Origin: an uncultured Trueperaceae bacterium
GTDB taxonomy: Bacteria; Deinococcota; Deinococci; Deinococcales; Trueperaceae
Length of the DNA: 17,265 nt
Assembly: GCA_937907415.1 (NCBI GenBank)
Contig: CALCHY010000370.1
Location: 1-17,265, forward strand
Reading direction: 5' to 3'
Of this stretch, positions 1,216 through 12,792 are shown piece by piece (positions within the stretch are counted from its first letter, which is position 1; each line of letters starts with the position of its first letter). Position numbers and translations under genes: made by a program. Below the pieces are notes generated by a model. It saw only the letters and a program-made list of their open reading frames with translations, had not been told where the DNA came from and did no database searches.

Positions 1216-1247
1216 GGGTGTCCCTCTCCGGATCACCCTCACTCTAC

Positions 1248-1274
1248 GTGGACCAGGACGCGGGGGTCAGACCA
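1248..1274 (-). repeat. right terminal inverted repeat of IS3 copy 1
   Basis: Carries GTGGACCA at 1248-1255 and a GGGGG tract. It is the inverted partner of 55-80 and ends in CA at 1273-1274. Confidence 0.7.
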
Positions 1275-1296
1275 CACCCTAGTAGCAGCTCGCAGA

Positions 1297-1331
1297 TAGA
1301 AAACGCGCTCCGCGCGCAGGCGAAGGGCATG
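1297..1331 (+). repeat. family A intergenic hairpin repeat, A1
   Basis: Contains TAGAAAACGCGC and a small stem CGCGC-TCC-GCGCG (1304-1316), then a GAAGGGCAT tail. It shares its first 22 bases with the copy at 2113. It lies directly ahead of the ribosome binding site of the 1346 gene. Confidence 0.75.
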
Positions 1332-1345
1332 AAGGGAGGTAGCAC

Positions 1346-1738
1346 ATGGCTACCAGGCTCTACCCGCTCTTCGACCCCCAGGACCACGACCAGGTGCAGG
1401 CGCTCGAGCGCCTCGCCGGCGTGCCTGCGGGCACGTACGCCCAGGCGCAGCAATACCGCGCCCAGGCGCAAGCCCTCGGGGATGATCCTGAGGCTGGGTA
1501 CCTGCACTGGCGGTCCGTGCAGGACACCCCCGTCGGGCGCATGGACGCCTTCCTCACCTTCGGGTGGGGGCGGCTCGCGCCCCGCGCCGAGGACCTCGTC
1601 GAGGCCCTCGGGCACGACCCGCACTGCGGGTCGATCGAGGACGCCCCCACCGCCGGGGACGTCCTCGACGCGCAGGGCCTCCCCTGCGCCGACGCCGAGA
1701 CGGTGGCCCTCCACCGCCTCGGCGTCACCTGGAACTAA
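1346..1738 (+). CDS. hypothetical protein, 130 aa
   Basis: No family recognised. A soluble, acidic, Ala-rich protein with no membrane segment or signal peptide. It starts MATRLYPLFD, has a Gln/Ala-rich helical stretch (AQAQQYRAQAQAL) around residues 32-45, and two cysteines. The ATG is well supported by GGGAGGT at 1334-1340. Codon use (Leu CTC, Pro CCC, third position mostly C or G) matches the rest of the accessory block and differs from the ccm genes. A long overlapping minus-strand frame is a GC-rich shadow. It is the first intact gene inside the left IS3 element, and its leader carries a family A hairpin. Confidence 0.75.
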   Translation: MATRLYPLFDPQDHDQVQALERLAGVPAGTYAQAQQYRAQAQALGDDPEAGYLHWRSVQDTPVGRMDAFLTFGWGRLAPRAEDLVEALGHDPHCGSIEDAPTAGDVLDAQGLPCADAETVALHRLGVTWN

Positions 1739-1758
1739 CCGTTCCAGGCCGCAAGGCC

Positions 1759-1784
1759 GGCGGCCCAACCCAGCTTGGGCCGCC
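1759..1784 (+). repeat. family B intergenic hairpin repeat, B1
   Basis: A perfect 10-bp stem, GGCGGCCCAA (1759-1768) with TTGGGCCGCC (1775-1784), and a 6-nt loop CCCAGC. It lies between the 1738 stop and the ribosome binding site of the 1809 gene. No T-tract follows, so a simple intrinsic terminator is unlikely. Confidence 0.85.
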
Positions 1785-1808
1785 AGAACCAACCCCGCCG
1801 GAGGACGC

Positions 1809-2105
1809 ATGTTCACGCCCGACATCCGCACCATCACCGACACCGCCATCCGCCACGCCCGCGCCAGCGACCAGTACGCCAAAGCCGTCACCACCGCCGC
1901 CATCGCCGGCTTCACCCTCGACGCCACCCCCAGGCGCAGCGACGACCGCGCCACCCTCACCCTCCCCCGCGACCGCACCCTCCCCGACCAACTCCTCGAA
2001 CAACTCGTCGCGCTCGCCGCCCACCTCCGCGGCCGCGCCATGGACGGAACCTGCACCCCCATCACCATCCACGTCCACCCCAAGGCGCACGCCGCACCCA
2101 ACTAG
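1809..2105 (+). CDS. hypothetical protein, 98 aa
   Basis: No family recognised. The start ATG is fixed by GGAGGA at 1800-1805. The protein begins MFTPDIRTITDTAIRHARAS, has an amphipathic Leu-rich region in its second half (DQLLEQLVALAAHLRG), and ends in a His/Pro-rich beta-like stretch (ITIHVHPKAHA). No cysteine cluster or membrane segment. The frame is open far upstream, but the ribosome binding site and the position just after hairpin B1 mark the real start. Small size and context suggest a plasmid or phage accessory protein. Confidence 0.68.
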   Translation: MFTPDIRTITDTAIRHARASDQYAKAVTTAAIAGFTLDATPRRSDDRATLTLPRDRTLPDQLLEQLVALAAHLRGRAMDGTCTPITIHVHPKAHAAPN

Positions 2106-2112
2106 GCAGGGG

Positions 2113-2146
2113 TAGAAAACGCGCTCCGCGCGCACAACGAAGGCAA
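2113..2146 (+). repeat. family A intergenic hairpin repeat, A2
   Basis: TAGAAAAC, then stem CGCGC-TCC-GCGCG at 2120-2132, with a GAAGGCAACAAGG tail. It begins 7 bases after the 2105 stop and immediately precedes the ribosome binding site (AAGGAGG) of the 2160 gene. Confidence 0.75.
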
Positions 2147-2159
2147 CAAGGAGGCAGGC

Positions 2160-2585
2160 ATGAGCGAAGCCCACCCCATCCGGCTCGACCCCAACTACCC
2201 CTACCGCCTCACGCGCGAGCAGACCGAGAACCTTCCCGCCAGCGAGACCGACCGGGTGGAGGACTGGTACCGCCTACGCGAGGAAACCGGGGCCATCCAC
2301 CCCAGCAACGCGCGCCTCGCCGACACCCTCGACGAAGCCATCCGCGCCACTATCGCCGGGGCGAACACGCACCACCTCACCAACCTCCAGCCCAGCGACT
2401 ACTTCGAGACCAGCCCCTTCGCCACGGCAGGAGAGAAGGCCCAGCACCTCTACCAAGGCCACCTCGAGGAACTCGAAGGGATCCTCGCAGCCGCCCTCAC
2501 GCGCGTGCGCGCGCAACGCACCCACCAGCACCAGTGGAAGCCCAACGGCTTCTGCGCCACCTGCGGGCTCGACGGCAACGCCTAG
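2160..2585 (+). CDS. hypothetical protein with C-terminal Cys/His cluster, 141 aa
   Basis: No family recognised. The ATG at 2160 is preceded by AAGGAGGC. The N-terminal half is acidic and helical (TENLPASETDRVEDWYRL). The C-terminus has the pattern HQHQW...CATCGL within the last 20 residues, which could bind a metal as a minimal His/Cys zinc site. Tails of this kind occur in many small phage proteins, but that is an inference from the motif only. It has accessory-block codon use and lies between hairpin A2 and the next small gene. Confidence 0.75.
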   Translation: MSEAHPIRLDPNYPYRLTREQTENLPASETDRVEDWYRLREETGAIHPSNARLADTLDEAIRATIAGANTHHLTNLQPSDYFETSPFATAGEKAQHLYQGHLEELEGILAAALTRVRAQRTHQHQWKPNGFCATCGLDGNA

Positions 2586-2613
2586 AGCCCGCAGCCCTAG
2601 AGAAAGGAGCCTC

Positions 2614-3003
2614 ATGCCAGGACGCGGCACCACCGCAAGGCACAACGGACAGATCCTCACCGTCCTCGACCCCGCCCCCAACCCCAACGGGAAGCGGCTC
2701 GAGCCCACCCGCGCCTACCGCGTCATCAGCAGCAGCGGCATGACCGGCACCATCGACGCCACCGTCCTCGAGCAGCACCGCATCGACCCCACGACACTCG
2801 AGCCGTACCCGACCGACGCGATTCGCGGGGTGCCGCGCCGGTTCCCGCAGGTCATCGCCGTACCGCACCGCGTCAGCGGCAGCAGCCTCATCTGCACCGT
2901 CATCCACAGCACCCACCCCAGCTACCCCGTCGGCGGGTACGACATCGCCGTCCCCACGAGCGAGGTCCTCGCCGCCCCCGCGCTACGCGCACCCAGCGCC
3001 TGA
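2614..3003 (+). CDS. hypothetical protein, 129 aa
   Basis: No family recognised. AAAGGAG at 2603-2609 supports the ATG. The sequence is beta-rich with many Pro, Thr and Ser (NGQILTVLDPAPNPNGKRLE; TRAYRVISSSGMTGTIDATV) and no membrane segment. The first half, with alternating hydrophobics around RHNGQILTVLD, may be a small barrel, but this is a guess. The last codons (ALRAPSA) are written by a GCGC-TAC-GCGC sequence identical to the family A core, so the C-terminus may have been created or changed by a repeat. Confidence 0.7.
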   Translation: MPGRGTTARHNGQILTVLDPAPNPNGKRLEPTRAYRVISSSGMTGTIDATVLEQHRIDPTTLEPYPTDAIRGVPRRFPQVIAVPHRVSGSSLICTVIHSTHPSYPVGGYDIAVPTSEVLAAPALRAPSA

Positions 3004-3029
3004 GCAGCAGCCCAAGCCGGATTGGGCCG
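2980..3029 (+). repeat. joined A-B hairpin repeat overlapping the end of the 2614 gene
   Basis: The family A core GCGC-TAC-GCGC lies at 2980-2990. The family B hairpin follows at 3010-3027: GCCCAA, loop GCCGGA, TTGGGC. The same A-then-B order with about 20 bases between occurs at 3671-3731. Here the A core is inside coding sequence and the B arm follows the stop. Confidence 0.7.
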
Positions 3030-3088
3030 AAAGGCCAGGCACCCCGGCATCACAAACGACAGACCAGCGGGAAGCTCACGACCAGCAG

Positions 3089-3120
3089 GCAAGGAAGCCC
3101 TACCGGGCATCCAGAAGATC
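3089..3120 (+). repeat. family A hairpin repeat, variant stem, in the SSB gene leader
   Basis: AAGGAA then GCCC-TACC-GGGC (3097-3108), followed by a CCAGAAGATCAGCAAG tail. Compared with GCGC-TAC-GCGC copies both arms have changed together. It is part of the 163-base leader (3004-3166) ahead of the SSB-like gene, which otherwise shows no convincing gene. A further GCGC-CATCGA-GCGC (3137-3150) stands just before its ribosome binding site. Confidence 0.65.
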
Positions 3121-3166
3121 AGCAAGACACTCAAGAGCGCCATCGAGCGCAGAAAGGCAGAACACG

Positions 3167-3574
3167 ATGATCACGATCCAAGGAGTCGCCGTCAACACCA
3201 AGAATGCCGAAGGCCCCATCACCACCAAGGGCGATCCGTTCCTCCCCGTCGCCGTGAACGTCAGCGGCAAGAAGGACAAGGCCGAGTGGCAGACCCTGCG
3301 CATCTACGCGCGCGAAGCCAGCGAGCTCGAGGCCCTGCGCGCGCACCTCGTGGACAAGAAGAGCCTCATCGTCCGCTCCATCTCCAGCCTCTTCGCTCGC
3401 ACCTACGAGAAGGACGGCGAGGTGCGGGCCACCACCAGCTTCAGCGCCAACCTGCGCCAGGTTGAGGGATTCGACAATGACGCGAAGAGCTGGGCGAAGC
3501 TCACCAGCCTCCTCGGCCTCGCCTCCAAGAGCGAGCCCACGGACGCGGTCGAGGGTCAGGACCTGCCCTTCTAA
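3167..3574 (+). CDS. single-stranded DNA-binding protein (SSB-like)
   Basis: A 135-residue protein that fits the bacterial SSB OB fold. A first strand begins at ITIQGVAVN, PFLPVAVNV occupies the second-strand position, and EWQTLRIYAREASELEALRAHL matches the conserved 'W-x-x-x-x-hydrophobic...LA..L' region. KKSLIVR and RTYEKDGEVRATT match the 'G-x-x-hydrophobic-x-V-x-G ... YEKDG' region. It ends in Asp-Leu-Pro-Phe, the short C-terminal tip SSBs use to recruit partner proteins. The linker between OB fold and tip is very short compared with chromosomal SSBs (about 165-180 residues). AAAGG at 3153-3157 supports the ATG. A strong terminator follows the gene. In a plasmid or phage block this suggests an own replication or recombination function. 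Confidence 0.82.
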   Translation: MITIQGVAVNTKNAEGPITTKGDPFLPVAVNVSGKKDKAEWQTLRIYAREASELEALRAHLVDKKSLIVRSISSLFARTYEKDGEVRATTSFSANLRQVEGFDNDAKSWAKLTSLLGLASKSEPTDAVEGQDLPF

Positions 3575-3591
3575 CGAGAGCAGCACCCCAG

Positions 3592-3631
3592 AGGGGGCGC
3601 CGCCGGCGATGCCGGCCGGCGCCCCCTTTTT
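3592..3631 (+). terminator. Rho-independent terminator after the SSB-like gene
   Basis: The GC stem GGGGGCGCCG pairs with CGGCGCCCCC. It extends by five more pairs past a one-base bulge to a GAT loop and is followed directly by TTTTT at 3627-3631. It starts 17 bases after the stop codon at 3574. Confidence 0.92.
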
Positions 3632-3670
3632 CTCGTAACCACCCCCAGCCGGCGCCGCGCGGGGAGAACG

Positions 3671-3733
3671 GCAGAAGGAAGCGCTACGCGCACCAGAAGG
3701 GCATCAAGGACCAGCCCAACCCGGATTGGGCCG
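3671..3733 (+). repeat. joined A-B hairpin repeat ahead of the 3766 gene
   Basis: GCAGAAGGAA then stem GCGC-TAC-GCGC (3681-3691) and tail CCAGAAGGGCATCAAGGA. Family B follows: GCCCAA (3714-3719), loop CCCGGA, TTGGGC (3726-3731). This is the fullest composite copy and serves as the reference for both families. Confidence 0.85.
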
Positions 3734-3765
3734 ACCCCCCGCTCTCGCCCCGCCTGGAGGTTCCC

Positions 3766-5142
3766 GTGGAGTTCAAGACCGCCCGCCAGCGCCGCCGCTA
3801 CCACACCACCCGCAAGACCCTCGCGCGCCACAAGCGCCAGGTGAACGGGGAAGACCGCAAGAGCATGTGGGCCGCCTTCGATGCCGACAACGAGCACTAT
3901 CCCCTCGAGGGGTTCGACGACCGCGCCTGGTACCGCGCCATGCGCGCGGACGGCACCGCCGGCAAGCTGCGCGGCAACCACCAAGGCAAGTACAGCGACC
4001 CCTACGGCGAGCGCTGGATGCAGACCCTCAACCGCACCCGCCGTAACCGCGTCGCCATGCGCAACGCGATGGTCAGCTATGAGCAGGAGCGCGAGCCGTT
4101 GCGTCCCGGCACGCGACCCCACCGCAAGAGCCAGCGCGCGCCTAACGCCACGCAGTTGCGAGACAAGATGCTCGCGCTCGAGGAGGAACTCCGCACGCTC
4201 CGCGCGCGCCGCTACCGCACCGGCGTGCTCGGCGAGTACCTCAGCGACTACAACGACCGGCGCGCCCGCACCCTCGAGCTGCGCCTCCTCGCCCTCGACG
4301 AGCAGCGGGCCCGCCTCCACACCGATCGCGCCGCCCGCGAGGCCCGGCCCCGACCCGGCACGTTCGCCGCCTGGGCCGCCAGGCAGGCCGCCCGCGACGC
4401 CCGCGGCGAACAGCTCTACCTCACGCTCGACCACCCCAGCGACACGAGCGGGCTCGAGCCCCACGACCAAGCGTTGCTCGAGGGGTTCCTCAAGGAGGCG
4501 CTGCACAGCACGGGCGCGCACGAGGAACTGCGCGACACGCACGCCCGGCCCCGCCTCGGGGACACCCACCACGACCACATGATGGCCGCCCTCGCCGAGT
4601 GCGAGGCGGCCGAGCGGCCGCCCACCCCAGCGTGGGCCGCCGCGCAGGAGGAACGCACCATGCCGAACGAGAACTGCCTTGCCGGAATCGCCTGCCCCAC
4701 GTGCGGGCAGGAGGAACACTTCGAGATCCACGCCAGCGCCACCTTCGACGTCACCGACGAAGGCACCGGCGACTACCAGGCCGTCGAGTGGAACGGCGAG
4801 AGCGCCATCCACTGCTCCAAGTGCGGCGAGTTCGGCCGCGTCAAGGACTTCCACCCCCGCGAGTCGTTCGTGCTGGTCAGCGACGAGATGGGCATCTACC
4901 TCGGGGAAGCGTTCGGGCTCGGCTTCTGGAGTCGCCTCGACCCCGCCGGGCAGACGCACGCCGTCAGCCTCACCCGCGAGGACGCCGAAGCCCTCCAAGT
5001 CACCCACGCCGGCCAAGACGTGCGGCTCGAGCGCGTCCCCACCTACCCCCGGTCCATCAGCGCCCGCGAGCTCGACGCCTTCGGACTCCGGGCGTACACC
5101 GCGCCACTGCGCCAGAACGCGCGCGAGCAGCAGGCCGCGTAG
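3766..5142 (+). CDS. hypothetical protein, 458 aa, probable run-together of two genes
   Basis: GTG start supported by GGAGG at 3756-3760. Residues 1 to about 290 are highly basic and Arg/Ala-rich, with predicted long helices (LALEEELRTLRARRYR; LRLLALDEQRARLHTDR) that look coiled-coil; no family recognised. Residues 299-458 form a distinct acidic domain with paired CxxC motifs (CPTC and CSKC, 33 residues apart), a likely zinc ribbon. The junction (PPTPAWAAAQEERTM) is the translation of a family B hairpin plus AGGAGG and ATG. Elsewhere in this block that arrangement is intergenic, so the second domain may be a separate 160-residue protein started at 4660, with or without the fusion. Confidence 0.7.
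   Translation: MEFKTARQRRRYHTTRKTLARHKRQVNGEDRKSMWAAFDADNEHYPLEGFDDRAWYRAMRADGTAGKLRGNHQGKYSDPYGERWMQTLNRTRRNRVAMRNAMVSYEQEREPLRPGTRPHRKSQRAPNATQLRDKMLALEEELRTLRARRYRTGVLGEYLSDYNDRRARTLELRLLALDEQRARLHTDRAAREARPRPGTFAAWAARQAARDARGEQLYLTLDHPSDTSGLEPHDQALLEGFLKEALHSTGAHEELRDTHARPRLGDTHHDHMMAALAECEAAERPPTPAWAAAQEERTMPNENCLAGIACPTCGQEEHFEIHASATFDVTDEGTGDYQAVEWNGESAIHCSKCGEFGRVKDFHPRESFVLVSDEMGIYLGEAFGLGFWSRLDPAGQTHAVSLTREDAEALQVTHAGQDVRLERVPTYPRSISARELDAFGLRAYTAPLRQNAREQQAA
4620..4662 (+). promoter_or_regulatory. in-frame family B hairpin, ribosome binding site and ATG inside the 3766 ORF
   Basis: GCCCAC (4620-4625), loop CCCAGC, GTGGGC (4632-4637), then AGGAGGAAC and ATG at 4660. The loop is identical to B1. 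The A:T pair at the top of the stem in other copies is C:G here. The layout equals an intergenic leader, so ATG 4660 is a likely real translation start for a 160-residue Cys4 protein (4660-5142). Confidence 0.6.
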
Positions 5143-5150
5143 GGGAGAGG

Positions 5151-5186
5151 GCAGAAGGAAGCCCTGCGGGCAGACGAGGGGCATGA
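5151..5186 (+). repeat. family A hairpin repeat with GCCC/GGGC stem
   Basis: GCAGAAGGAA followed by GCCC-TGC-GGGC (5161-5171) and a tail that runs into the start of the 5183 gene (GAGGGGCATGAGC). Both arms of the stem have changed relative to GCGC copies while pairing and the 3-nt loop are kept. Confidence 0.75.
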
Positions 5187-5389
5187 GCAACGACCTGGTA
5201 GCCCGCACGGAGAAGCGCATCCTCGACCTCTACGGCGCGTACCACGACAACCCCAACGGTAGCGAAGCCGACCAGCTCCTCGAGGAGATGAGCGAGGAGG
5301 TCGGCAACCTCGCGGACCTCGCCGGGCTCGAACTGCACGAGATGGCCGCGTCCATCGACCGGCGCTACAGCATCGACCTGCCCGTATGA
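5183..5389 (+). CDS. small acidic hypothetical protein, 68 aa
   Basis: No family recognised. Mostly helical and acidic: VARTEKRILDLYGAYHDNP, then ADQLLEEMSEEVGNLADLAG. No cysteines and no membrane segment. The start ATG at 5183 has GAGGGG very close upstream (2 bases), so initiation may be weak or may use the AGAAGGAAG of the hairpin repeat. The frame is open upstream, but that part is a shadow of the 3766 ORF. Size and charge would fit a small DNA-mimic or regulatory phage protein; that is only a suggestion. Confidence 0.62.
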   Translation: MSNDLVARTEKRILDLYGAYHDNPNGSEADQLLEEMSEEVGNLADLAGLELHEMAASIDRRYSIDLPV

Positions 5390-5396
5390 CCCCAGA

Positions 5397-5424
5397 GGGC
5401 GGCCCAATCCAGGTTGGGCCGCCC
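5397..5424 (+). repeat. family B hairpin repeat, long stem
   Basis: An 11-bp stem from GGGCGGCCCAA (5397-5407) and TTGGGCCGCCC (5414-5424), loop TCCAGG. It begins 7 bases after the 5389 stop. No T-tract follows. Confidence 0.85.
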
Positions 5425-5440
5425 CCACCTCGCGTGGCTA

Positions 5441-5460
5441 TGAAGCGCGCTGCGCGCGCA
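5441..5460 (+). repeat. family A hairpin repeat, 6-bp stem, next to a ribosome binding site
   Basis: TGAA, then GCGCGC-TGC-GCGCGC (5445-5459), directly followed by AGGAGGAAC and the ATG at 5472. The pairing arm touches the Shine-Dalgarno sequence, so folding could affect ribosome access. Confidence 0.7.
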
Positions 5461-5471
5461 GGAGGAACGGC

Positions 5472-5786
5472 ATGAACGACACGCTCACCACTCCCAGAGC
5501 GCGCCTCAACACCGAGTACCGGGCGCTCTACGCAGCCGTGCGGCGCTGGAAGGCCCGGCTCGCCCAAGCGCAGCGGCTCGAGCAGCGCGCCATCCGCCAC
5601 GCGGACGTGCAGGCTCTCTCAGAGGCCAGAGCAGCCAGAGCCCAAGCGGAGAAGAAGCATGCACAGGCGTTGCGCGTCGCCATCGGTGGAATCCGGCGGA
5701 TCGCGCGTAGGCCCCCAACCCGCCCACGGGTAGAGCCTGTGCCGTTGCTGGAGCCCGTCGCGGAAGAGTCCCGCCAGGCCGCCTAA
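5472..5786 (+). CDS. basic coiled-coil-like hypothetical protein, 104 aa
   Basis: No family recognised. The ATG has a strong AGGAGG at 5460-5465. Very rich in Arg, Ala, Gln and Lys with a long predicted helix (RARLNTEYRALYAAVRRWK through LSEARAARAQAEKKHAQAL), followed by a Pro/Arg-rich tail (RRPPTRPRVEPVPLLEP). High positive charge suggests nucleic acid binding or a structural role. No cysteine or membrane segment. The terminator at 5828-5863 closes the unit. Confidence 0.68.
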   Translation: MNDTLTTPRARLNTEYRALYAAVRRWKARLAQAQRLEQRAIRHADVQALSEARAARAQAEKKHAQALRVAIGGIRRIARRPPTRPRVEPVPLLEPVAEESRQAA

Positions 5787-5827
5787 CCCGCACAGCGACC
5801 AATCAGATACCGAGAAAGAATGACCAG

Positions 5828-5863
5828 GAAGGTGCGAAACGGTTCCCGCGCCTTCTCTGTTTT
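5828..5863 (+). terminator. probable Rho-independent terminator
   Basis: GAAGGTGCG (5828-5836) pairs with CGCGCCTTC (5847-5855) with one G-T wobble and a 10-nt loop, followed by TCTGTTTT. It lies 42 bases after the 5786 stop. The rest of 5787-5990 is visibly less GC-rich and holds no convincing gene; a weak promoter-like TTGCAT and TTATCG pair (5862-5891) was seen but not called. Confidence 0.7.
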
Positions 5864-5990
5864 GCATGTAGCGTCGCATCAGAGGTTATCGGATGCCGCC
5901 CACGCCCCCACCCATCCAACCCCAGAAAGAAAGCGGGGTTCCCCCGCAGACCAGGGGCAACACCACAGGCGAACACGCCAGGAGGCACCC

Positions 5991-6227
5991 ATGACCACCC
6001 TCACCGCCCTCACGCTGCTCGTTCTCCTCGCCGCCATCTACGGCCTCATCCGCCAACGCCGCACTGCACGCCAGAACGCCCGCGCCCAGGCTCTGCGCGC
6101 GCGCCTCAAGGCCCAAGCGCTCGTCCTGCCCGAAATCGAACGGCAGTACGGGCCCGACAGCCACAGCGCCAGGTACCTGCGCGCCGCCACCTACCTCACC
6201 ACCCGCCGCCTCCGCACGCGCGGCTGA
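5991..6227 (+). CDS. small single-span membrane protein, 78 aa
   Basis: ATG at 5991 with GGAGG at 5981-5985; an earlier in-frame ATG at 5820 overlaps the terminator and is not preferred. The N-terminus is one hydrophobic segment (LTALTLLVLLAAIYGLI, residues about 3-20). A strongly basic stretch follows (RQRRTARQNARAQALRARLK), giving an N-out, C-in single-pass topology by the positive-inside rule. No family recognised. It lies 11 bases ahead of the exported protein at 6239, so the two may be made together. Confidence 0.7.
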   Translation: MTTLTALTLLVLLAAIYGLIRQRRTARQNARAQALRARLKAQALVLPEIERQYGPDSHSARYLRAATYLTTRRLRTRG

Positions 6228-6238
6228 AAGACACCCCC

Positions 6239-6955
6239 ATGACGCACCGCCCCCACATCCTCACGCTCACCCTCGCGCTCCTCACCCTCGCGCTCCTCGG
6301 CGCCGCCAGCGCCCAAGTCGGCATCGCCTACGCCCACGTCAGCCTCAGCATCCGCTTCGGCGACGGCAACCCCGCCAGCTTCGAGGTGAGCGGCAGCATC
6401 TACCCCAGCCTCGCCACCGACACGTTCTGCATCCCCGGTGCGCGCTGCGCAACCGGCATGGCAACCCCCCTCGGGTACGTCTACGACCCCAACGTCTTCG
6501 ACCACAAGCCCGAGTACCACGGTGAAGAGATCCACCACATTAAGCAGTGGGAGGCGCTCGGCCCCGGCTTCCTCATCGCCTACCTCATGACCGGCGGCGA
6601 ACCGTTCGAGCCGTACCCCACCCGCGGCGTCATCCCCGCCGCAGCCAGCGCCAGCGAGCGATGGGACTTCGGCCGCATGTGGGTGCCCGAACCCGAAATG
6701 GAAGGCACCTTCCCGCAGTTCCGCATCGCGTGGGGTGGCGGCGACAAGCCCAGCACCCGCATCTACCCCGGATACACCGACCTCGCCCGCGACGTCATCG
6801 CCAGCATCCGCGGCAACCCCACCCCCAGCTTGCCCAACGAACCCGTCCTCGCGACCCTCGAGCTCACGCCCTACCTGGCCATCGCCAACCTCGCCACCCC
6901 CGCACCCGACGGCACCCCCAGCGCCAGCGCCAGCGACCCCAACGAGGACGGCTAA
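6239..6955 (+). CDS. exported protein of unknown function, 238 aa
   Basis: A Sec signal peptide is clear: MTHRPH, a Leu/Ala core to about residue 20, then the AxA site GAASA with cleavage after residue 25. The mature part has a Cys pair in FCIPGARC, many aromatic and Pro residues, and an Ala/Ser/Pro-rich tail (SASASDPNEDG) that may be a disordered linker. No catalytic motif or lipobox is seen. There is no good Shine-Dalgarno upstream (only GAAAG), so it may be coupled to the membrane protein at 5991. Unusual as an exported product in a block otherwise made of cytoplasmic plasmid or phage proteins. No family recognised. Confidence 0.75.
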   Translation: MTHRPHILTLTLALLTLALLGAASAQVGIAYAHVSLSIRFGDGNPASFEVSGSIYPSLATDTFCIPGARCATGMATPLGYVYDPNVFDHKPEYHGEEIHHIKQWEALGPGFLIAYLMTGGEPFEPYPTRGVIPAAASASERWDFGRMWVPEPEMEGTFPQFRIAWGGGDKPSTRIYPGYTDLARDVIASIRGNPTPSLPNEPVLATLELTPYLAIANLATPAPDGTPSASASDPNEDG

Positions 6956-6977
6956 ACCCCACGACCACACCCATCAC

Positions 6978-7002
6978 CGGCCCGCCACCAGGCGGGCCGT
7001 TT
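6978..7002 (+). terminator. hairpin, possible terminator after the exported protein gene
   Basis: CGGCCCGCC (6978-6986), loop ACCA, GGCGGGCCG (6991-6999), then TTTC. A 9-bp perfect stem with only a three-T tail, so terminator strength is uncertain. It lies 22 bases after the stop codon and just ahead of the 7024 ribosome binding site. Confidence 0.55.
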
Positions 7003-7023
7003 CAGCAGGGGAGAGGAGACCCC

Positions 7024-7281
7024 GTGCGCCTCTACCGCGTAGAGCCACCCCGTAAAGACTTCGGACACGTCGACGCCATCCTCATCCACGCCCCCGACGA
7101 AGAAACCGCCCGGCGGCTCGCGCTCGAGCACGTCGAACACGACGAGCACCTCGAGTGGTGCTCACGCAGCATCCGCGACCACGAGCTCCGCGTCACCGAG
7201 GAGGACGCGGAGGCCGAGGTGATCCGCGTCGACATGTGCACCCCGTGGTGGAGCGACCAGAACGAGGAGGACGGCGAATAG
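7024..7281 (+). CDS. small hypothetical protein, phage-like, 85 aa
   Basis: GTG start with GGGGAGAGGAG just upstream (7009-7018). The protein starts MRLYRVEPP, has an alternating beta stretch (HVDAILIHAPDEETARRLAL) typical of small phage proteins in which an 'A-x-x-E-E-x-A-R' helix follows a strand, and ends in a strongly acidic tail (QNEEDGE). Two cysteines, no metal-site pattern. The resemblance is to a general phage pattern remembered from annotation, not to a named family. Confidence 0.68.
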   Translation: MRLYRVEPPRKDFGHVDAILIHAPDEETARRLALEHVEHDEHLEWCSRSIRDHELRVTEEDAEAEVIRVDMCTPWWSDQNEEDGE

Positions 7282-7309
7282 GCGGCCCCGGCCCCCTGCG
7301 GTAGCAGGA

Positions 7310-7336
7310 CAGAAGGAAGCCCGCCCAGGGGCGGGC
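7310..7336 (+). repeat. family A hairpin repeat with long GCCCGCC stem
   Basis: CAGAAGGAA followed by GCCCGCC (7319-7325), loop CAGG, GGCGGGC (7330-7336). The lead sequence is kept but the stem is longer and different, again with both arms changed together. A second small hairpin, CGCGC-GAGAGA-GCGCG (7350-7365), lies between it and the ribosome binding site of the 7381 gene. Confidence 0.7.
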
Positions 7337-7380
7337 ACGGGAATCCAGCCGCGCGAGAGAGCGCGAGATGGAGGAGAACC

Positions 7381-9135
7381 GTGCCCGAACAACAGACCCC
7401 GTACGAGGAACTCGCCAGTGTCGTTCACGACTACCGCGAAGCCCAGTACGACAAGCACCGCGGCCACGCCTTCGCCCACTACCAGGAGCACGAGGACGGC
7501 ACGCGTACCGTCACACTGCCCAGTGGCGACATCTTCCACCGCAGCCAGCGCGGCATCCTGCGCCTCGACCTCGTGCAGGCCCGCGACCGCATCGTCCCCA
7601 CCACCTACCCCATGTTCGTCCGCGCCCACTCGCGCTGGTGGCACTCGCTCCTCACCGCCTACCACCGTGACGTCGTAGACGACGTCCTCGGCCTCGCACG
7701 CGCCCACTACGGCCGTGAAATCGACCAACTCAGCGACGCCGAGGCGAAAGCCGCGTTCCGGCACGCCCACCGCATTCACGGCGGCATCGTCCAACCCGGC
7801 CCCTACCAGCAGCGCGCGCGTCACCTCGCCAAGAACCTCTACCGCCTCACCGACCCGGTCGTGTTCAGCCTCTTCACGCGCTGCACCAGCCCCTACAACC
7901 GCAGCAGCCACCAGTACAACCTCATCGCCGCCCTCGAACACCCCGAAGAGGTCAACCCCGCCGTCCTCGCCGCCTACGTCGCGCTCTACGAGCCCACCAC
8001 CCGGCACCAGCACGACCCCGAGGACTACCCGAGGCACGACCCCATCCAAGTCACCCAAGTCGTCCGCGCCGCCCTCGAACGGCAGACCGGCACCCTGCCC
8101 AGGCGCACGTGGCGGTACCTCACGCGCATGAAGCCCCGCGACGCCGCCTACGTGCTCCTCGCCACCCGCGAGCACGCCACCCGCTACTTAGGCGCGCTCG
8201 CCGACTCGGGCGAAACGCCCAGGCACACCACCCTCGGTCACCTCACGAGCGTCTGGACGCGACTCCAGCAGATGAACACCGCTGCGGACATGCCGGTCGA
8301 GCGCTTCAGTCAGTACGCCCGCATGCTCGCGCGCGCCACGCACAAGAGCCGCCGCATCAAGGCCCTCATCCGTGACCTCGATCGCGCCCAAGTCATGACC
8401 GATTGGCTCGCCAGCAACCCGCCCCTCACGAGCGCCCAAGCCGCACTCCCGCTCGAGTGGTGGCAGCAGCAGGCAAGAGCGTGGCACGACGACCCAGGCG
8501 GCCCCATCCAGCAGGCGCAACGCAGGCGCGAGCAGGAGTCCAAGCACTACCGCGAGCGCAACGCATGGCTCCAGCCCCTGCGTGAGCAGCACGCCCTCGA
8601 GCGGCGCGCGCTCACCGCCAGCCTCGAAGGGTTCGAGGTCGCCCTGCCGGAGTTCACGCTCGGGCGCGTCACCGCCCGCGCCCTCACCACCCCCGCCGCC
8701 CTCAAGCAGGAGGGCGAGGAGATGCAGCACTGCGTCGGCGGGTACGGCCACATCTGCGCGCGCGGCAGCAGCCGCATCTACGCCCTCGACGGCAACGACG
8801 CACGCAGCACCCTCGAACTCGCGTTCGACGAGTTCCGCGGCGCATGGTGCATCCAGCAGCACTACGCCGAGCGCAACCGTGACCCCATCCCCAGCCACCA
8901 GAAGACCGCCCGCGCCCTCGCCCAGGCGTACAGCGAGCAGCAGGCGACCCCGCACACCGACCCGTACCAGGCGCTCGAGAAACGCCACGCCCGCGAGATG
9001 CGCGAACGCGAACGCGCCTTCCGCCCCGGTCTCGAACCCGCCGCGACGCCGCTGCCGCAACCCACCAACCCCATGCCCATGCCCGCCATCGACCTTGACC
9101 TCGAGTACCCCGCAGAAGAGGAGTTCCCCTTCTGA
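7381..9135 (+). CDS. PcfJ-like protein, 584 aa
   Basis: GTG start with GGAGGAG at 7371-7377. The C-terminal third carries the PcfJ signature: EGEEMQHCVGGYG (around residues 444-456) with Met448, His450 and Cys451, then an Ile-Tyr-x-Leu strand, a Thr/Leu-Glu-Leu strand and an Ile-Gln-Gln motif (AWCIQQHYAERNRDPIP). PcfJ-like proteins are encoded by conjugative plasmids and phages; their activity is not established. The first 400 residues are helical and do not resemble anything I can name, though HRDVVDDVLGLARAHYG is typical of the upstream region in this family. The tail ends in acidic and Phe residues (EYPAEEEFPF), recalling an SSB-like tip. The PcfK partner often found next to PcfJ is not seen. 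Confidence 0.82.
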   Translation: MPEQQTPYEELASVVHDYREAQYDKHRGHAFAHYQEHEDGTRTVTLPSGDIFHRSQRGILRLDLVQARDRIVPTTYPMFVRAHSRWWHSLLTAYHRDVVDDVLGLARAHYGREIDQLSDAEAKAAFRHAHRIHGGIVQPGPYQQRARHLAKNLYRLTDPVVFSLFTRCTSPYNRSSHQYNLIAALEHPEEVNPAVLAAYVALYEPTTRHQHDPEDYPRHDPIQVTQVVRAALERQTGTLPRRTWRYLTRMKPRDAAYVLLATREHATRYLGALADSGETPRHTTLGHLTSVWTRLQQMNTAADMPVERFSQYARMLARATHKSRRIKALIRDLDRAQVMTDWLASNPPLTSAQAALPLEWWQQQARAWHDDPGGPIQQAQRRREQESKHYRERNAWLQPLREQHALERRALTASLEGFEVALPEFTLGRVTARALTTPAALKQEGEEMQHCVGGYGHICARGSSRIYALDGNDARSTLELAFDEFRGAWCIQQHYAERNRDPIPSHQKTARALAQAYSEQQATPHTDPYQALEKRHAREMRERERAFRPGLEPAATPLPQPTNPMPMPAIDLDLEYPAEEEFPF

Positions 9136-9141
9136 TGATTC

Positions 9142-9167
9142 GCGGGCGGCCCCGGACGGTCGCCCGC
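9142..9167 (+). other. hairpin just after the PcfJ-like gene
   Basis: GCGGGCG (9142-9148) pairs with CGCCCGC (9161-9167), with a 12-nt loop, 6 bases after the stop. No T-tract. It may protect the mRNA end or form part of the repeat-rich tail region. Confidence 0.5.
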
Positions 9168-9189
9168 ACCCGCCTTCGCGCGGCCAGGG

Positions 9190-9225
9190 ACAGAAGGAAG
9201 CGCTACGCGCACAAGAAGAGACAGC
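9190..9225 (+). repeat. family A hairpin repeat
   Basis: ACAGAAGGAA then GCGC-TAC-GCGC (9200-9210) and an ACAAGAAGAGACAGCAAG tail. The lead and stem are the same as in the 3671 copy. No intact gene follows. Confidence 0.75.
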
Positions 9226-9280
9226 AAGCCCCGGAGAGGAACCTGCGGGGCGCGCGAGCACCGCGTCAGCGCGGTCAGGG

Positions 9281-9375
9281 CGGGACCCAGTTGGGCCGAG
9301 GTGCCCCCCGCCCTCAGAACACCGCTGCGCGCGCAGCAGAAGGAAGCGCTGCGCGCAGAACACCAGCATCAGGCA
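9281..9375 (+). repeat. damaged family B copy followed by family A palindromes
   Basis: CCCAG and TTGGGCC (9286-9297) keep the right arm of family B but have lost one loop base and the left arm. After it come GCTGCGC-GCGCAGC (9324-9337, a perfect 14-base palindrome) and AGAAGGAA with GCGC-TGC-GCGC (9346-9356). Confidence 0.6.
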
Positions 9376-9393
9376 CAGAAGGAGGAGCCGACC

Positions 9394-9523
9394 CTGAAAC
9401 GCGTCCATCCGTAAGGCAGAGCAGAGCAGCTGCGAACTGTGCGGCACGCTCGCCCACCACCGGTTGTACCTCAAATGGTGCCGTTGTGGATGTGGAGGCG
9501 CGTCGCGCGCCATGTGTAATTAG
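9394..9523 (+). pseudogene. possible decayed small Cys-rich (zinc-finger-like) gene
   Basis: GGAGGAG at 9381-9387 is well placed for a start at 9394, but the codon is CTG (LKRVHP) and a TAA follows six codons later. In the next frame, open from about 9400, the sequence reads SCELCGTLAHHRLYLKW and then CRCGC, ending in TAG at 9521-9523. CxxC, HH and CxC spacing looks like a small metal-binding protein. A one-base change of frame and a start change would restore one reading frame, so I read it as a broken gene, with modest certainty. Confidence 0.35.
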
Positions 9524-10046
9524 GCGCGGTTTACTCACGGCTCTCTCGACTTCCTGGATTTTGGCTCCAAAGGTGCGACGTTGGAGTGTAAGGAACCATC
9601 GATGACAGTGCAGCACTACCTCCTCGGGCTCTTGATGATCGAGCTCGCTCGGTGATCCATTTCGGGTCTCCGGCAGGACAGTGGGGCGCGTAAGAGTTCC
9701 GTGAGGGTCGGCCTGGAAGATGTGTGTTGGACCTGCCGGAACGGGGGTCTGTGCTTCGGAGGCGACGAAGCCCACTCCTGTATTTGGGCGCTTGGGATGG
9801 GTGGAGCCAGTAGCGCAACCGGCCGAAGGTGAAGAAAGCGATCTCTCCAACACTTTCCTGATTCACCTTCGTCAAGACCGAGCACTTCGAGTTGGGACGG
9901 CACTCATCTGCCGTCCTGACCGGATCCTTGACGAAGGGAGGGCGAAGACCGGGCGCGACCATCGAGGCAGGCTCATCAAGCCATCTCGGACTCGACGCCC
10001 ATCCAACGAGCAGCACCGTAGTCGGCCCCTTTCAGGGGCACACCAC
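9524..10046 (+). other. unassigned stretch of more than 500 bases, lower GC
   Basis: Base composition drops relative to both sides and codon structure is poor in all frames. Several open frames exist on both strands, none with a convincing start, ribosome binding site or recognisable motif. One clear hairpin is present: GGACGGCA (9895-9902), loop CTCATC, TGCCGTCC (9909-9916). It probably holds remnants of older insertions next to the IS3 element. I see no intact gene here. Confidence 0.5.
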
Positions 10047-10084
10047 TGGCCGAACCCCGGCTTTCAATCCACTCACGGTGTGGG
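10047..10084 (+). repeat. left terminal inverted repeat of IS3 copy 2
   Basis: Inverted match to 11229-11271 through AACCCC, CTTT, ATCCA and GTGTGGG blocks; overlaps the orfB stop at 10073-10075. Confidence 0.7.
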
Positions 10085-10939
10085 TTCCATCGTCAGGCTA
10101 TCTGACGTCTTGAACTGGTTGAGGACTTCGAGTGGGGTCGCGTCGTTCAACGCGCCGTGGGGTCGCTCCGCGTTGTAGTACCGTCGCCAGCCGTCGATGA
10201 CGACCTGTGCTTCGAGCACCGTTGCGAACAACTCCTGGTCGAGGAGTTCGTCGCGAAGGCGGGCGTGGAAGGTTTCCGCGAACGGGTTCTGCCACGGCGC
10301 GCCCGGCTCGATGAACATCGTCGCGACACCCGTCGCGGCAAGGAACCGCGCGAGGCCACTCGCGATGAACTCGGGCCCGTTGTCGCTCCGCAGGTGCTTC
10401 GGAGGGCCGTAGCGCGTCATGAGGCGCTCGAGCACCTCGATCGCGTCCGTCGCCTTGACGCTCCTCGCGGTGAACGTCGCCAGGCACGCCTTTGAGTACT
10501 CGTCCGTCACCGTCAGGATCTTCAAGCGACGACCGTCGACGGTGGCGTCGAAGAGGAAGTCGACAGCCCACACGTCGTGCGGCACTTGGGCGCGATAGCG
10601 TTCGCTCCCATCGACCTGCGGACCGAGCCGCCGGCGCTTCACCGTCTTGCGCGGCACGCCGAGACCGTGCAGCCGCCACAACCGAGCGACGCGCTTCTTG
10701 TTGACGCGCCAGCCCTCCTTGCGGAGCTTCACGGTGATCTTGCGGTACCCGAGCCGCGGATGCTTCTCCGAGAGCTCATGGAGGCGCTCCACGAGCTTCC
10801 GATCCGCATGCGGGCGTCTCGGCTCGTAACGAACCAGGCTCCGGGAGATGCCGAGCGCTTTGCAGGCCCGCCGTTCGCTCACGCCGAGCTCCTGGACCAC
10901 GTGCTTCACGGCCGATCGTTTCCGCTCGGCCGTCAGTAC
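10073..10939 (-). CDS. IS3-family transposase OrfB (DDE integrase domain)
   Basis: Catalytic subunit of the second IS3 element. Domain order as in the first copy: SERRACKALGISRS, HPRLGYRKITVKL, then the integrase core with Asp in VWAVDF, Asp in RSDNGPEF and Glu in AETFHARLRDE, ending near YYNAERPHGAL. By eye more than half of the residues agree with the first copy, yet differences are spread throughout, so these are two related elements and not a recent duplication. The frame is open from the slippery site at 10939-10945, and the open frame further upstream is only overlap with orfA. It appears intact and potentially active. Confidence 0.92.
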   Translation of the reverse strand, partial: VLTAERKRSAVKHVVQELGVSERRACKALGISRSLVRYEPRRPHADRKLVERLHELSEKHPRLGYRKITVKLRKEGWRVNKKRVARLWRLHGLGVPRKTVKRRRLGPQVDGSERYRAQVPHDVWAVDFLFDATVDGRRLKILTVTDEYSKACLATFTARSVKATDAIEVLERLMTRYGPPKHLRSDNGPEFIASGLARFLAATGVATMFIEPGAPWQNPFAETFHARLRDELLDQELFATVLEAQVVIDGWRRYYNAERPHGALNDATPLEVLNQFKTSDSLTMEPTP

Positions 10940-11214
10940 TTTCCCTCGACGGCCTCCTTCAGGATGCTGTTGTCCAGCTCCTTCTCCGCCAGCAGCTTCT
11001 TCAGCCGGGCGTTCTCCTTCTCCAGGTCCTTCAGACGCTTCGCGTCGTCCTTGCTCATGCCCGCGTACTGCTTTCTCCAGCGGTAGTACGACCACTCCGC
11101 GATCCCGAGACGCTTCGTCGCCGCAGCGATCGAGAGGCCCTCCTCGGCCTGGAGCTTCTCGAGGTCGCGCAGCATCCCGACGATCTGCTCCGGCGAATAC
11201 GCTTTGCCCTTCAT
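10933..11214 (-). CDS. IS3-family transposase OrfA (helix-turn-helix)
   Basis: 93 residues. It starts MKGKAYSPEQIVGMLRDLEK at the ATG whose + strand complement is 11212-11214, with GGAGGGAG upstream; the longer frame from 11253 lacks this. Helix-turn-helix region ([18 protein letters not shown]) and leucine-zipper-like region ([19 protein letters not shown]) are conserved with the first copy. It ends EGKY-stop over the slippery heptamer. Expected to bind the IS ends and, as OrfAB after frameshifting, to supply the transposase. Confidence 0.9.
   Translation of the reverse strand: MKGKAYSPEQIVGMLRDLEKLQAEEGLSIAAATKRLGIAEWSYYRWRKQYAGMSKDDAKRLKDLEKENARLKKLLAEKELDNSILKEAVEGKY
10939..10945 (-). 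promoter_or_regulatory. probable -1 ribosomal frameshift site, IS3 copy 2
   Basis: Minus-strand heptamer GGGAAAG, read G GGA AAG in the orfA frame, two codons before its stop. Same place and type as the GGGAAAC of copy 1; only the last base differs. Confidence 0.75.
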
Positions 11215-11271: not shown

Positions 11272-12792
11272 GATGGCGCGGGCCCCAACCCGCTGCTCCA
11301 GAATCACTGGATGATGGCGGTCCACCCCGTGCTGATGTACCTCGGCATCGTGGGCTTGACCGTGCCGTTCGCGTACGCGATGGCGGCCCTGATCACCGGC
11401 CGCAGCGGCACCGATTGGATGCGGGAGACGCGCGCCTGGACGCTCATAGGGTGTGCATTTCTCAGTGCCGCGATCGTCGCTGGAGGCTGGTGGAGCTACG
11501 AGGTGCTCGGTTGGGGTGGTTACTGGGCGTGGGACCCGGTCGAGAACCTGATCTTCTTGCCGTGGTTGACGGCGACGGCGTTCGTGCACAGCGTTCAGGT
11601 GCAGGAACGTAGGCGCATGCTGAAGGCCTGGAACGTGTTCCTGATCGTGCTGACGTTCAACCTCTCGATCCTCTCGACGTTCCTCATCCGCTCGGGGGTG
11701 CTTTCCTCCGTGCACGCGTTCGGGGACGGCCCGATCGGACCGGTGTTCCTGGGGTTCTTCCTGCTCGTCACCGTCGTCGCGTTCGGTCTCGCCGCCTGGC
11801 GCCGGGATCAGTTGCGCGATCACGCCGAGCTCGACGGCGTGGTGAGTCGCGAGGGCGGGTTCCTGGTCAACAACGTGCTCTTCACGGCGATGGCCTTCGC
11901 AGTGCTGCTCGGCACGCTGTTCCCGCTCGTCGTCGAGGCCGTGAGCGGGGGGAAGGTCACGGTCGGCGCGCCCTTCTTCGATCGCATCAGCATCCCGCTC
12001 TGGTTGGCGGTGCTCGCGCTCATGGGCATCGGACCGCTCCTGCCCTGGCGCAAGGCGGCGACGCAGCGCGTTCGAACGAACCTCGCCTGGCTGATCGCCG
12101 GCGGACTCGTCACGGGCGTCGCTGCGTACCTGTTGGGCATGCGGCGTCCGTACCCGCTCGCCACGATCGCGCTGGCCGGCTACAATCTCGTGAGTCTGGC
12201 CCTGCTCGTGGGGGGACCGATCCGGGCCCGCTCGCGCGCCACAGGTCGACGCATCGTGGGCGTCGCCGCCGACTACGCCCGGGAACACCGGCGCCGCGTC
12301 GGGAGCACGATCGTGCACTTCGGCGTGGTGATCATCGCGGTCGCGGTCGCGGCGAGCGGAGGCTACCGCGTGGACACGCAACTCCGGCTCGCATTCGATG
12401 CGCCCGTGGCCTTCGAGGGCTACACGCTGATCGCCCGGCGGACCTACACCGAGAACCTGCCTCAGCGCACGAGCGAGGGGGCCGTCATCGACGTCGAGCG
12501 GAACGGGCGTGCACTCGCCACGCTCCGGCCGCGCATCAATAGGTTTCGAAACGCGCAGCAGGCCGTCACGACGCCCGGTGTGCTGTACCGGCCGTTCGAG
12601 GACGTCTACCTCAGCCTCTCGCAAATCGATCCCGACGGGCGGTGGGTCATCGTGCGCGCCGTTCGCAGCCCCCTCGTCACATGGATTTGGTGGGGAGGCG
12701 CGATCCTGGTCCTCGGCACGGTGTACGCGCTCATACCGGGACTCGCGCGTGAGCGGCGCCTAGCCGACTCGGTCGAGGGGGCCGCCACGTGA
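11272..12792 (+). pseudogene. ccmF: CcmF, 5'-truncated by IS3 insertion (506 codons remain)
   Basis: CcmF is the membrane haem lyase core that attaches haem to apocytochrome c in System I maturation. The frame runs from the IS edge (DGAGPNPLLQNHW) to the stop. The WWD haem-binding motif (WGGYWAWDPVEN) lies near residues 81-92 of the remnant. Histidines at the positions usually used as haem ligands are visible in MAVHPVLMYLG, FVHSVQ, SSVHAFG and IVHFGVV; their equivalence to the E. coli ligands is my alignment by eye. Many membrane segments remain. Family members are about 630-660 residues, so roughly 130-150 N-terminal residues are missing and are not on the other side of either IS element. 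The first ATG (11311) has no ribosome binding site. The rest is free of frameshifts, which suggests recent interruption. Confidence 0.88.

Follow-up and report, generated by a model that had tools for sequence, protein, structure and literature searches.

The question raised by this stretch, 17,265 nt of DNA from an uncultured Trueperaceae bacterium (contig CALCHY010000370.1 of assembly GCA_937907415.1; hereafter, the window), is why a short hairpin module recurs in front of one gene after another in its left part, at approximately 1240-9620 (hereafter, the block). A first inspection of the letters alone (the original prediction) had listed ten copies, at 1297, 2113, 2980, 3089, 3671, 5151, 5441, 7310, 9190 and 9338. 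Nine of these positions were retained and one further copy, at 5929, was added to the list; the position 2980, described as 'core only', was dropped, as it is without a box and lies in frame within the last codons of gene 2614-3003 (..APALRAPSA). The ten copies that result are a family beyond chance, in which a purine box is followed by a perfectly paired hairpin, and all of them point in the same direction as the genes.

The purine box reads CAGAAGGAA in five copies, takes the partial form GCAAGGAA in one and is present as variants in four. Although the stems that follow them are of three kinds, the five CAGAAGGAA boxes are identical. Every stem is perfect and made of G-C pairs throughout, with lengths of 4 bp (n = 5), 5 bp (n = 2), 6 bp (n = 2) and 7 bp (n = 1), and encloses a loop of 3 nt (eight copies) or 4 nt (two copies). 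Immediately 5' of the stem stands AA in 10/10 copies, and immediately 3' of it A (eight copies) or CA (two copies). The tail beyond is only loosely conserved but purine-rich, with 71% purine in 22 nt compared to 56% across intergenic DNA.

The excess of this unit over chance was seen with several definitions. A hairpin rule (GAA, 0-2 nt, a perfect GC stem of at least 4 bp, a loop of 3-4 nt, and an A within 2 nt) yielded 11 matches on the + strand of 1240-9620, ten of them intergenic and one at 4791 inside the open reading frame (ORF) 3766-5142, and a single match on the - strand. In 200 dinucleotide shuffles of the block the same rule averaged 0.6 matches and never exceeded 3, as against 11, and in 1000 shuffles of the intergenic pieces it averaged 0.2, again with no more than 3, as against 10. 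Across 85 other loci (2.59 million strand-bases) it was matched 0.48 times per 8381 nt, with no more than four matches in any such stretch, and in the 36 loci above 66% GC 0.56 times per 8381 nt. The window has eleven occurrences of the word AAGGAA, ten on the + strand and one on the - strand; each of the six occurrences at 3091-9340 is directly followed by a perfect stem of at least 4 bp, while the other five (19, 9590, 10340 and 14465 on the + strand; 15761 on the - strand) have no stem directly after them, and in the other loci a stem directly follows 14/439 occurrences. The word AGAAGGAAGSSC is found five times, compared to an expected 0.01. When a model was built from five copies, the next-ranked sites were 2113 (E 0.0015), 1297 (0.0067) and 7310 (0.021), followed by 2980 (0.14), the tail of the 5441 copy (0.21), which alone was matched there (5456-5477), and 5929 (0.25), all of which ranked above the rest of the window.

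The block holds twelve co-directional genes, and the module is found at 8/12 of their junctions, counting the leader of gene 1346, and at 8/10 of the junctions of at least 40 nt. All ten copies are on the + strand. The placement is not random, and the original prediction that the copies lie in gene leaders is borne out for most of them. Some starts are our own choice: those at 1809, 5183, 5991 and 7024 were selected by ribosome-binding site and context, and a mechanical list gives longer ORFs there. The two remaining long junctions carry other hairpins, at 1759-1784 and 6978-6999.

The first two copies, at 1297-1334 (stem 1304-1308/1312-1316) and 2113-2150 (stem 2120-2124/2128-2132), share the stem CGCGC/GCGCG and the box TAGAAAA and lie ahead of genes 1346-1738 and 2160-2585, respectively. 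They are followed by a copy at 3089-3126 (stem 3097-3100/3105-3108, GCCC/GGGC, 4-nt loop) ahead of gene 3167-3574 and one at 3671-3708 (stem 3681-3684/3688-3691, GCGC/GCGC, box CAGAAGGAA) ahead of ORF 3766-5142. At two sites the purine run itself provides the start codon: the tail of the copy at 5151-5188 (stem 5161-5164/5168-5171, GCCC/GGGC, box CAGAAGGAA) contains the ATG at 5183, and that of the 5441 copy (5440-5477; stem 5445-5450/5454-5459, GCGCGC/GCGCGC, variant box) the ATG at 5472. The 5929 copy (5923-5964; stem 5933-5938/5942-5947, GCGGGG/CCCCGC, loop TTC) precedes the chosen start at 5991, and a longer ORF starting at 5820 would take it in. The longest stem belongs to the copy at 7310-7348 (7319-7325/7330-7336, GCCCGCC/GGCGGGC, 4-nt loop, box CAGAAGGAA), ahead of gene 7381-9135. 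The last two copies both have the stem GCGC/GCGC and the box CAGAAGGAA; one, at 9190-9228 (stem 9200-9203/9207-9210), has no clear gene after it, and the other, the 9338 copy (9336-9373; stem 9346-9349/9353-9356), lies within a 37-aa ORF that begins with GTG (9301-9414) and reads through the module. Beyond this ORF, a Cys-rich reading seen by eye (CELCG..HH) follows without a standard in-frame start (9301-9519).

A second family of hairpins was observed in the same block, at 1759-1784, 3010-3027, 3714-3731, 4620-4637 and 5397-5424. Its stems of 6-11 bp pair GCCCAA or GCCCAC with TTGGGC or GTGGGC across a 6-nt centre, and 3/5 of them stand just past stop codons. Such a hairpin lies upstream of the module at 3004-3166 and 5390-5471 and downstream of it at 3671-3731.

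The position of a purine word ahead of genes raises the possibility that the box serves translation directly. Scored against the 16S tail, for which we assumed the sequence, the gene's own Shine-Dalgarno (SD) site reaches -9.6 to -16.7 kcal/mol in 8/9 starts tested, the exception being that after the 5151 copy; the ninth start, after the 9338 copy, is doubtful. In 7/8 module-preceded genes the own SD is downstream of the box and stronger than it, and for the start at 5183 the best SD is no stronger. The module shares with STAB-SD sites (PMC4113751) an SD-like purine word, AAGGA within the box, upstream of the true SD, and as a STAB-SD or standby site it would park the 30S subunit there and shield the message, as the known STAB-SD does (PMC4113751). 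The box is, however, a mediocre partner for the 16S tail: five copies pair with it at -6.6 kcal/mol, three at -5.6 to -7.0 kcal/mol and the other two at -2.4 and -2.9 kcal/mol, weaker than 8/9 of the real SDs, and -6.6 kcal/mol lies at only the 15th percentile of intergenic 12-mers. As the hairpin is additional to anything in a STAB-SD and would be left without a role, we regard an upstream SD as very unlikely.

We next consider the stems themselves. Their outer parts read GCGC in four copies, GCCC in three, CGCG in two and GCGG in one, and 40/40 outer pairs are formed. When the 3' arms were re-dealt among the ten copies, 40/40 was reached in 1/20000 deals in the outer register and in 11/20000 in the inner register. 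The earlier claim that the stems differ yet stay paired is accordingly upheld beyond chance on ten copies, which are few and paralogous and four of which were recognised partly through the stem; on the six found by the linear box, which contain two outer stems, the result is marginal, with 979/20000 deals reaching the observed value. Taken together, the pairing of the stem is probably under selection.

An alternative source of such regularity would be protein coding. GCG CTN CGC GCA encodes Ala-Leu-Arg-Ala, which can be read in some frame in 7/10 copies, five of them as QKEALRA or one change less, and the most variable pair of the stem falls on two wobble positions; in addition, the 9338 copy is inside the 37-aa ORF, and the copies at 1297, 3089 and 5929 are inside longer ORFs of some frame. 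The modules might then be remains or overlaps of short QKEALRA coding stretches with codons that are palindromic by chance. Against this, the copies at 3089, 5929 and 7310 keep the stem and lose the reading, and the 1297 and 3671 copies differ in the frame of the tail word GAAGGGCAT. The codons also fit poorly: in the block, 28% of Glu codons are GAA and 1% of Leu codons are CTA, yet GAA is used in 6/6 copies with K-E and CTA in three, copies which are related and so not independent draws, and block codon usage would match the wobble pair in about 28%. We therefore give a coding relic very little credence, the least of the readings considered here.

Viewed from the opposite strand, the same letters form a GC hairpin followed by a pyrimidine tract (TTCCTTCTG, TTTTCTA or TTTCTTTCTG), and could act as a leftward intrinsic terminator, which would stop antisense transcripts at the upstream border of genes. 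On the - strand, TT directly follows the stem in 10/10 copies, and 8/10 have at least five T among the first eight bases past it; the all-GC stems are suitable as well. A terminator scan, which required 5 or more pairs in the stem and five or more T in 8 bases, found ten sites on the - strand and one on the + strand, compared to 5.5 on both strands of shuffles, and seven of the ten - strand sites overlap four copies (1297, 2113, 5929 and 7310). Nonetheless, five of the ten stems are no longer than 4 bp, whereas the block's clear + strand terminator, at 3601-3621, has a 7-bp stem followed by TTTTT. The + strand is T-poor throughout the block, which accounts in part for pyrimidine stretches on the - strand, and in five copies the tract is exactly TTCCTTCTG, not just T-rich. 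As a terminator would also leave the purine-rich tail and the position before starts unexplained, we consider it unlikely.

The original prediction knew of no named family that fits, and none of those tested does: an Rfam 15 gathering scan of the window reported only a c-di-GMP-II riboswitch at 9749-9833 and nothing on the modules, and a permissive Rfam scan of 1240-9620 added a single weak match that falls outside the modules, at 2195-2261. Integron attC sites carry complementary RYYYAAC and GTTRRRY boxes 40-140 nt apart; no exact pair of such boxes is present on either strand of the window. A literature search, thin and confined to one open-access library, found nothing like the module.

In arrangement, the closest known elements are the SAS and ESAS repeats of Cluster K mycobacteriophages, which are dispersed at the starts of some non-structural genes, nearly all in one orientation (PMC12699233, PMC3203893). 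SAS is the word GGGATAGGAGCCC, which lies at most a few nt from the start, with an adjacent inverted repeat at about half of the sites (PMC12699233), and ESAS are 17-bp repeats with a consensus, for which hairpins found little support (PMC3203893). Like these, the module is dispersed, has one orientation and stands at gene starts; unlike them, its stem letters vary with pairing kept, and its fixed word differs. GGGATAGGAGCCC, allowing up to two mismatches, has one match in the window, itself with two mismatches, and at least one match was found in 85/200 shuffles, which is the level of chance. Cluster O mycobacteriophages carry many copies, many of them intergenic, of a 17-bp dyad repeat with a 7-bp inverted repeat and a 3-nt centre (PMC4351075). 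These dyads have invariant arms, an orientation that seems irrelevant and about one third of their copies in genes (PMC4351075), compared to the varying paired arms and one-sided box of the module.

In anatomy, the closest known elements are the perfect-palindrome REPs, mostly intergenic elements with a short perfect palindrome (5 to 8 bp), a loop of 3-4 nt and a tag at the 5' foot (PMC8266576). The module could accordingly be a small non-coding repeat spread as a single-stranded DNA hairpin by an HUH-type transposase that recognises the tag and the palindrome, and its G-C-only stems suit DNA as well as RNA. The tag, however, is AGAAGGAA or its variants, with AA at the stem foot throughout, and not GTAG or CGTC; GTAG stands four bases ahead of the stem in the 2113 copy only. 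Moreover, module copies are one-way and before starts, whereas most REPs lie downstream of genes, frequently as oppositely oriented pairs (PMC3733652), and the stem letters are not common to the copies. No RAYT (HUH) transposase was detected among the window proteins tested. We hold a REP-like element to be quite improbable.

Our best explanation, to which we assign a probability of about 0.45, is that the module is a cis element which accompanies gene starts in a plasmid- or phage-like element. It would act in polycistronic sense RNA, where it would mark a cistron's 5' end; reading would rely on the letters of the box and on the shape of the adjacent hairpin, and this reading would set the processing or protection of that 5' end and, through it, the cistron's share of expression. 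This explanation is suggested by the letter-fixed box, the shape-fixed hairpin, the single orientation, the position before starts and the finding that the + strand of 1240-9700 is without a sigma-70-like site in a scan that covers only that promoter type, which fits a block with few promoters. A more specific form is possible but rather doubtful: the marks, placed on most cistrons, would be a new class of intercistronic RNA punctuation, all recognised by a single trans factor that the element itself may encode, and the long message would be cut or protected one cistron at a time. For the earlier idea of a block-wide 5' untranslated region switch read by a protein of the block, nothing speaks beyond position: domain libraries revealed no RNA-binding regulator among the block proteins tested, and the sole candidate among them for binding nucleic acids is SSB-like, with a weak model.

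Several observations weigh against the cistron-mark reading. The local folding evidence is mixed, as the stem is favoured in only about half of the stretches and other pairings are preferred elsewhere: hairpins of 4 bp are weak (-3.8 to -5.8 kcal/mol), the module stem is within the minimum-energy structure of 5/10 short stretches (1297, 3089, 3671, 5929 and 7310), and in longer stretches its pairing probability is at least 0.3 in 5/10 (1297, 2113, 3089, 3671 and 5929) and below 0.15 in the other five. In silico, shuffling of the arms hardly altered the openness of the ribosome-binding site in eight leaders. Because every pair is G-C, a structure in RNA is indistinguishable from one in single-stranded DNA. 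The distance from stem end to next start ranges from 12 to 75 nt, two copies (9190 and 9338) are without a clear gene after them, and with several starts chosen by us, longer ORFs would enclose some copies in frames. The marginal pairing result on six copies and the Ala-Leu-Arg-Ala reading of seven count on the same side.

The setting of the block provides hints as to the kind of element that carries the module. Domain-library scans recognised no known domain in most block proteins and a PcfJ domain in one; the product of 3167-3574 is SSB-like, as judged by its fold and its -LPF end. IS3-type transposase genes flank the block at 80-913 (NCBIfam and Pfam) and 10073-11095 (Pfam). Within 1501-9000 the AT skew is +0.25 to +0.35 and the GC skew -0.08 to -0.26, and third codon positions in the block are 65% C and 2.5% T, with 91% GC at these positions; this strong coding-strand asymmetry is absent from the cytochrome c biogenesis genes to the right of the block. 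One of the latter, CcmF at 11311, shares 61% identity with the CcmF of a Trueperaceae metagenome-assembled genome (MAG) and at most 48% with the other 79 loci kept. From the PcfJ domain, the SSB-like fold, the IS3-type genes on both sides and the strand skew, we infer that the block belongs to a plasmid- or phage-like mobile element, and from the CcmF identity that its host is Trueperaceae-like.

Two further features of this region were noted. The c-di-GMP-II riboswitch (RF01786, 70.6 bits, + strand) lies between the block and the right IS3-type gene. ORF 3766-5142 (458 aa) contains, at 4605-4660, an in-frame hairpin of the second family (4620-4637), a AGGAGGAA site and an ATG at 4660, and matches, to separate hypothetical proteins from plasmids of Halomonas and Vibrio, are confined to the C-terminal part of its product, beginning near residue 295; the ORF may represent two genes fused through loss of a stop codon.

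Relatives of the element were sought by protein, alignment and DNA. Empty results from genomes and viruses are weak here, as no genome known to match is among those searched. Viral contigs yielded no protein relative with the PcfJ protein or its alignment, the SSB-like alignment or the 458-aa protein. Two DNA patterns matched four viral contigs once each, and by eye these matches fall in the coding sequence of unlike genes. Searches of phages and plasmids by protein or distant DNA gave no match or merely remote or short partial ones, and the SSB-like family was not found in the phages, plasmids or genomes searched. For PcfJ, the alignment had no match in genome contigs and the protein matched 0/7 genomes. 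The SSB-like alignment matched 0/6 genomes, 0/7 genomes, 0/111 genomes of the phylum of the Trueperaceae MAG, and 0/395, 0/396 and 0/297 genomes (phyla of the loci titled Gemmatimonadota, Actinomycetota and Acidobacteria, respectively). A DNA pattern gave a single match in 1/111 genomes, and the RNA model R1 matched 0/111. In a protein database, PcfJ had six matches, one of them 100% identical; the SSB-like protein had 18, one of them 98% identical and one on a 56.9-kb contig in NCBI/ENA; and the 458-aa ORF matched only itself.

Dispersed repeats associated with gene starts are already known from some phages, and their function is left open in the literature cited above. In the module, unlike in those phage cases, pairing persists as the letters vary, an indication that a structure is being read. 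If the module is a general leader mark, a mobile element could use it to adjust the expression of many genes with few promoters.

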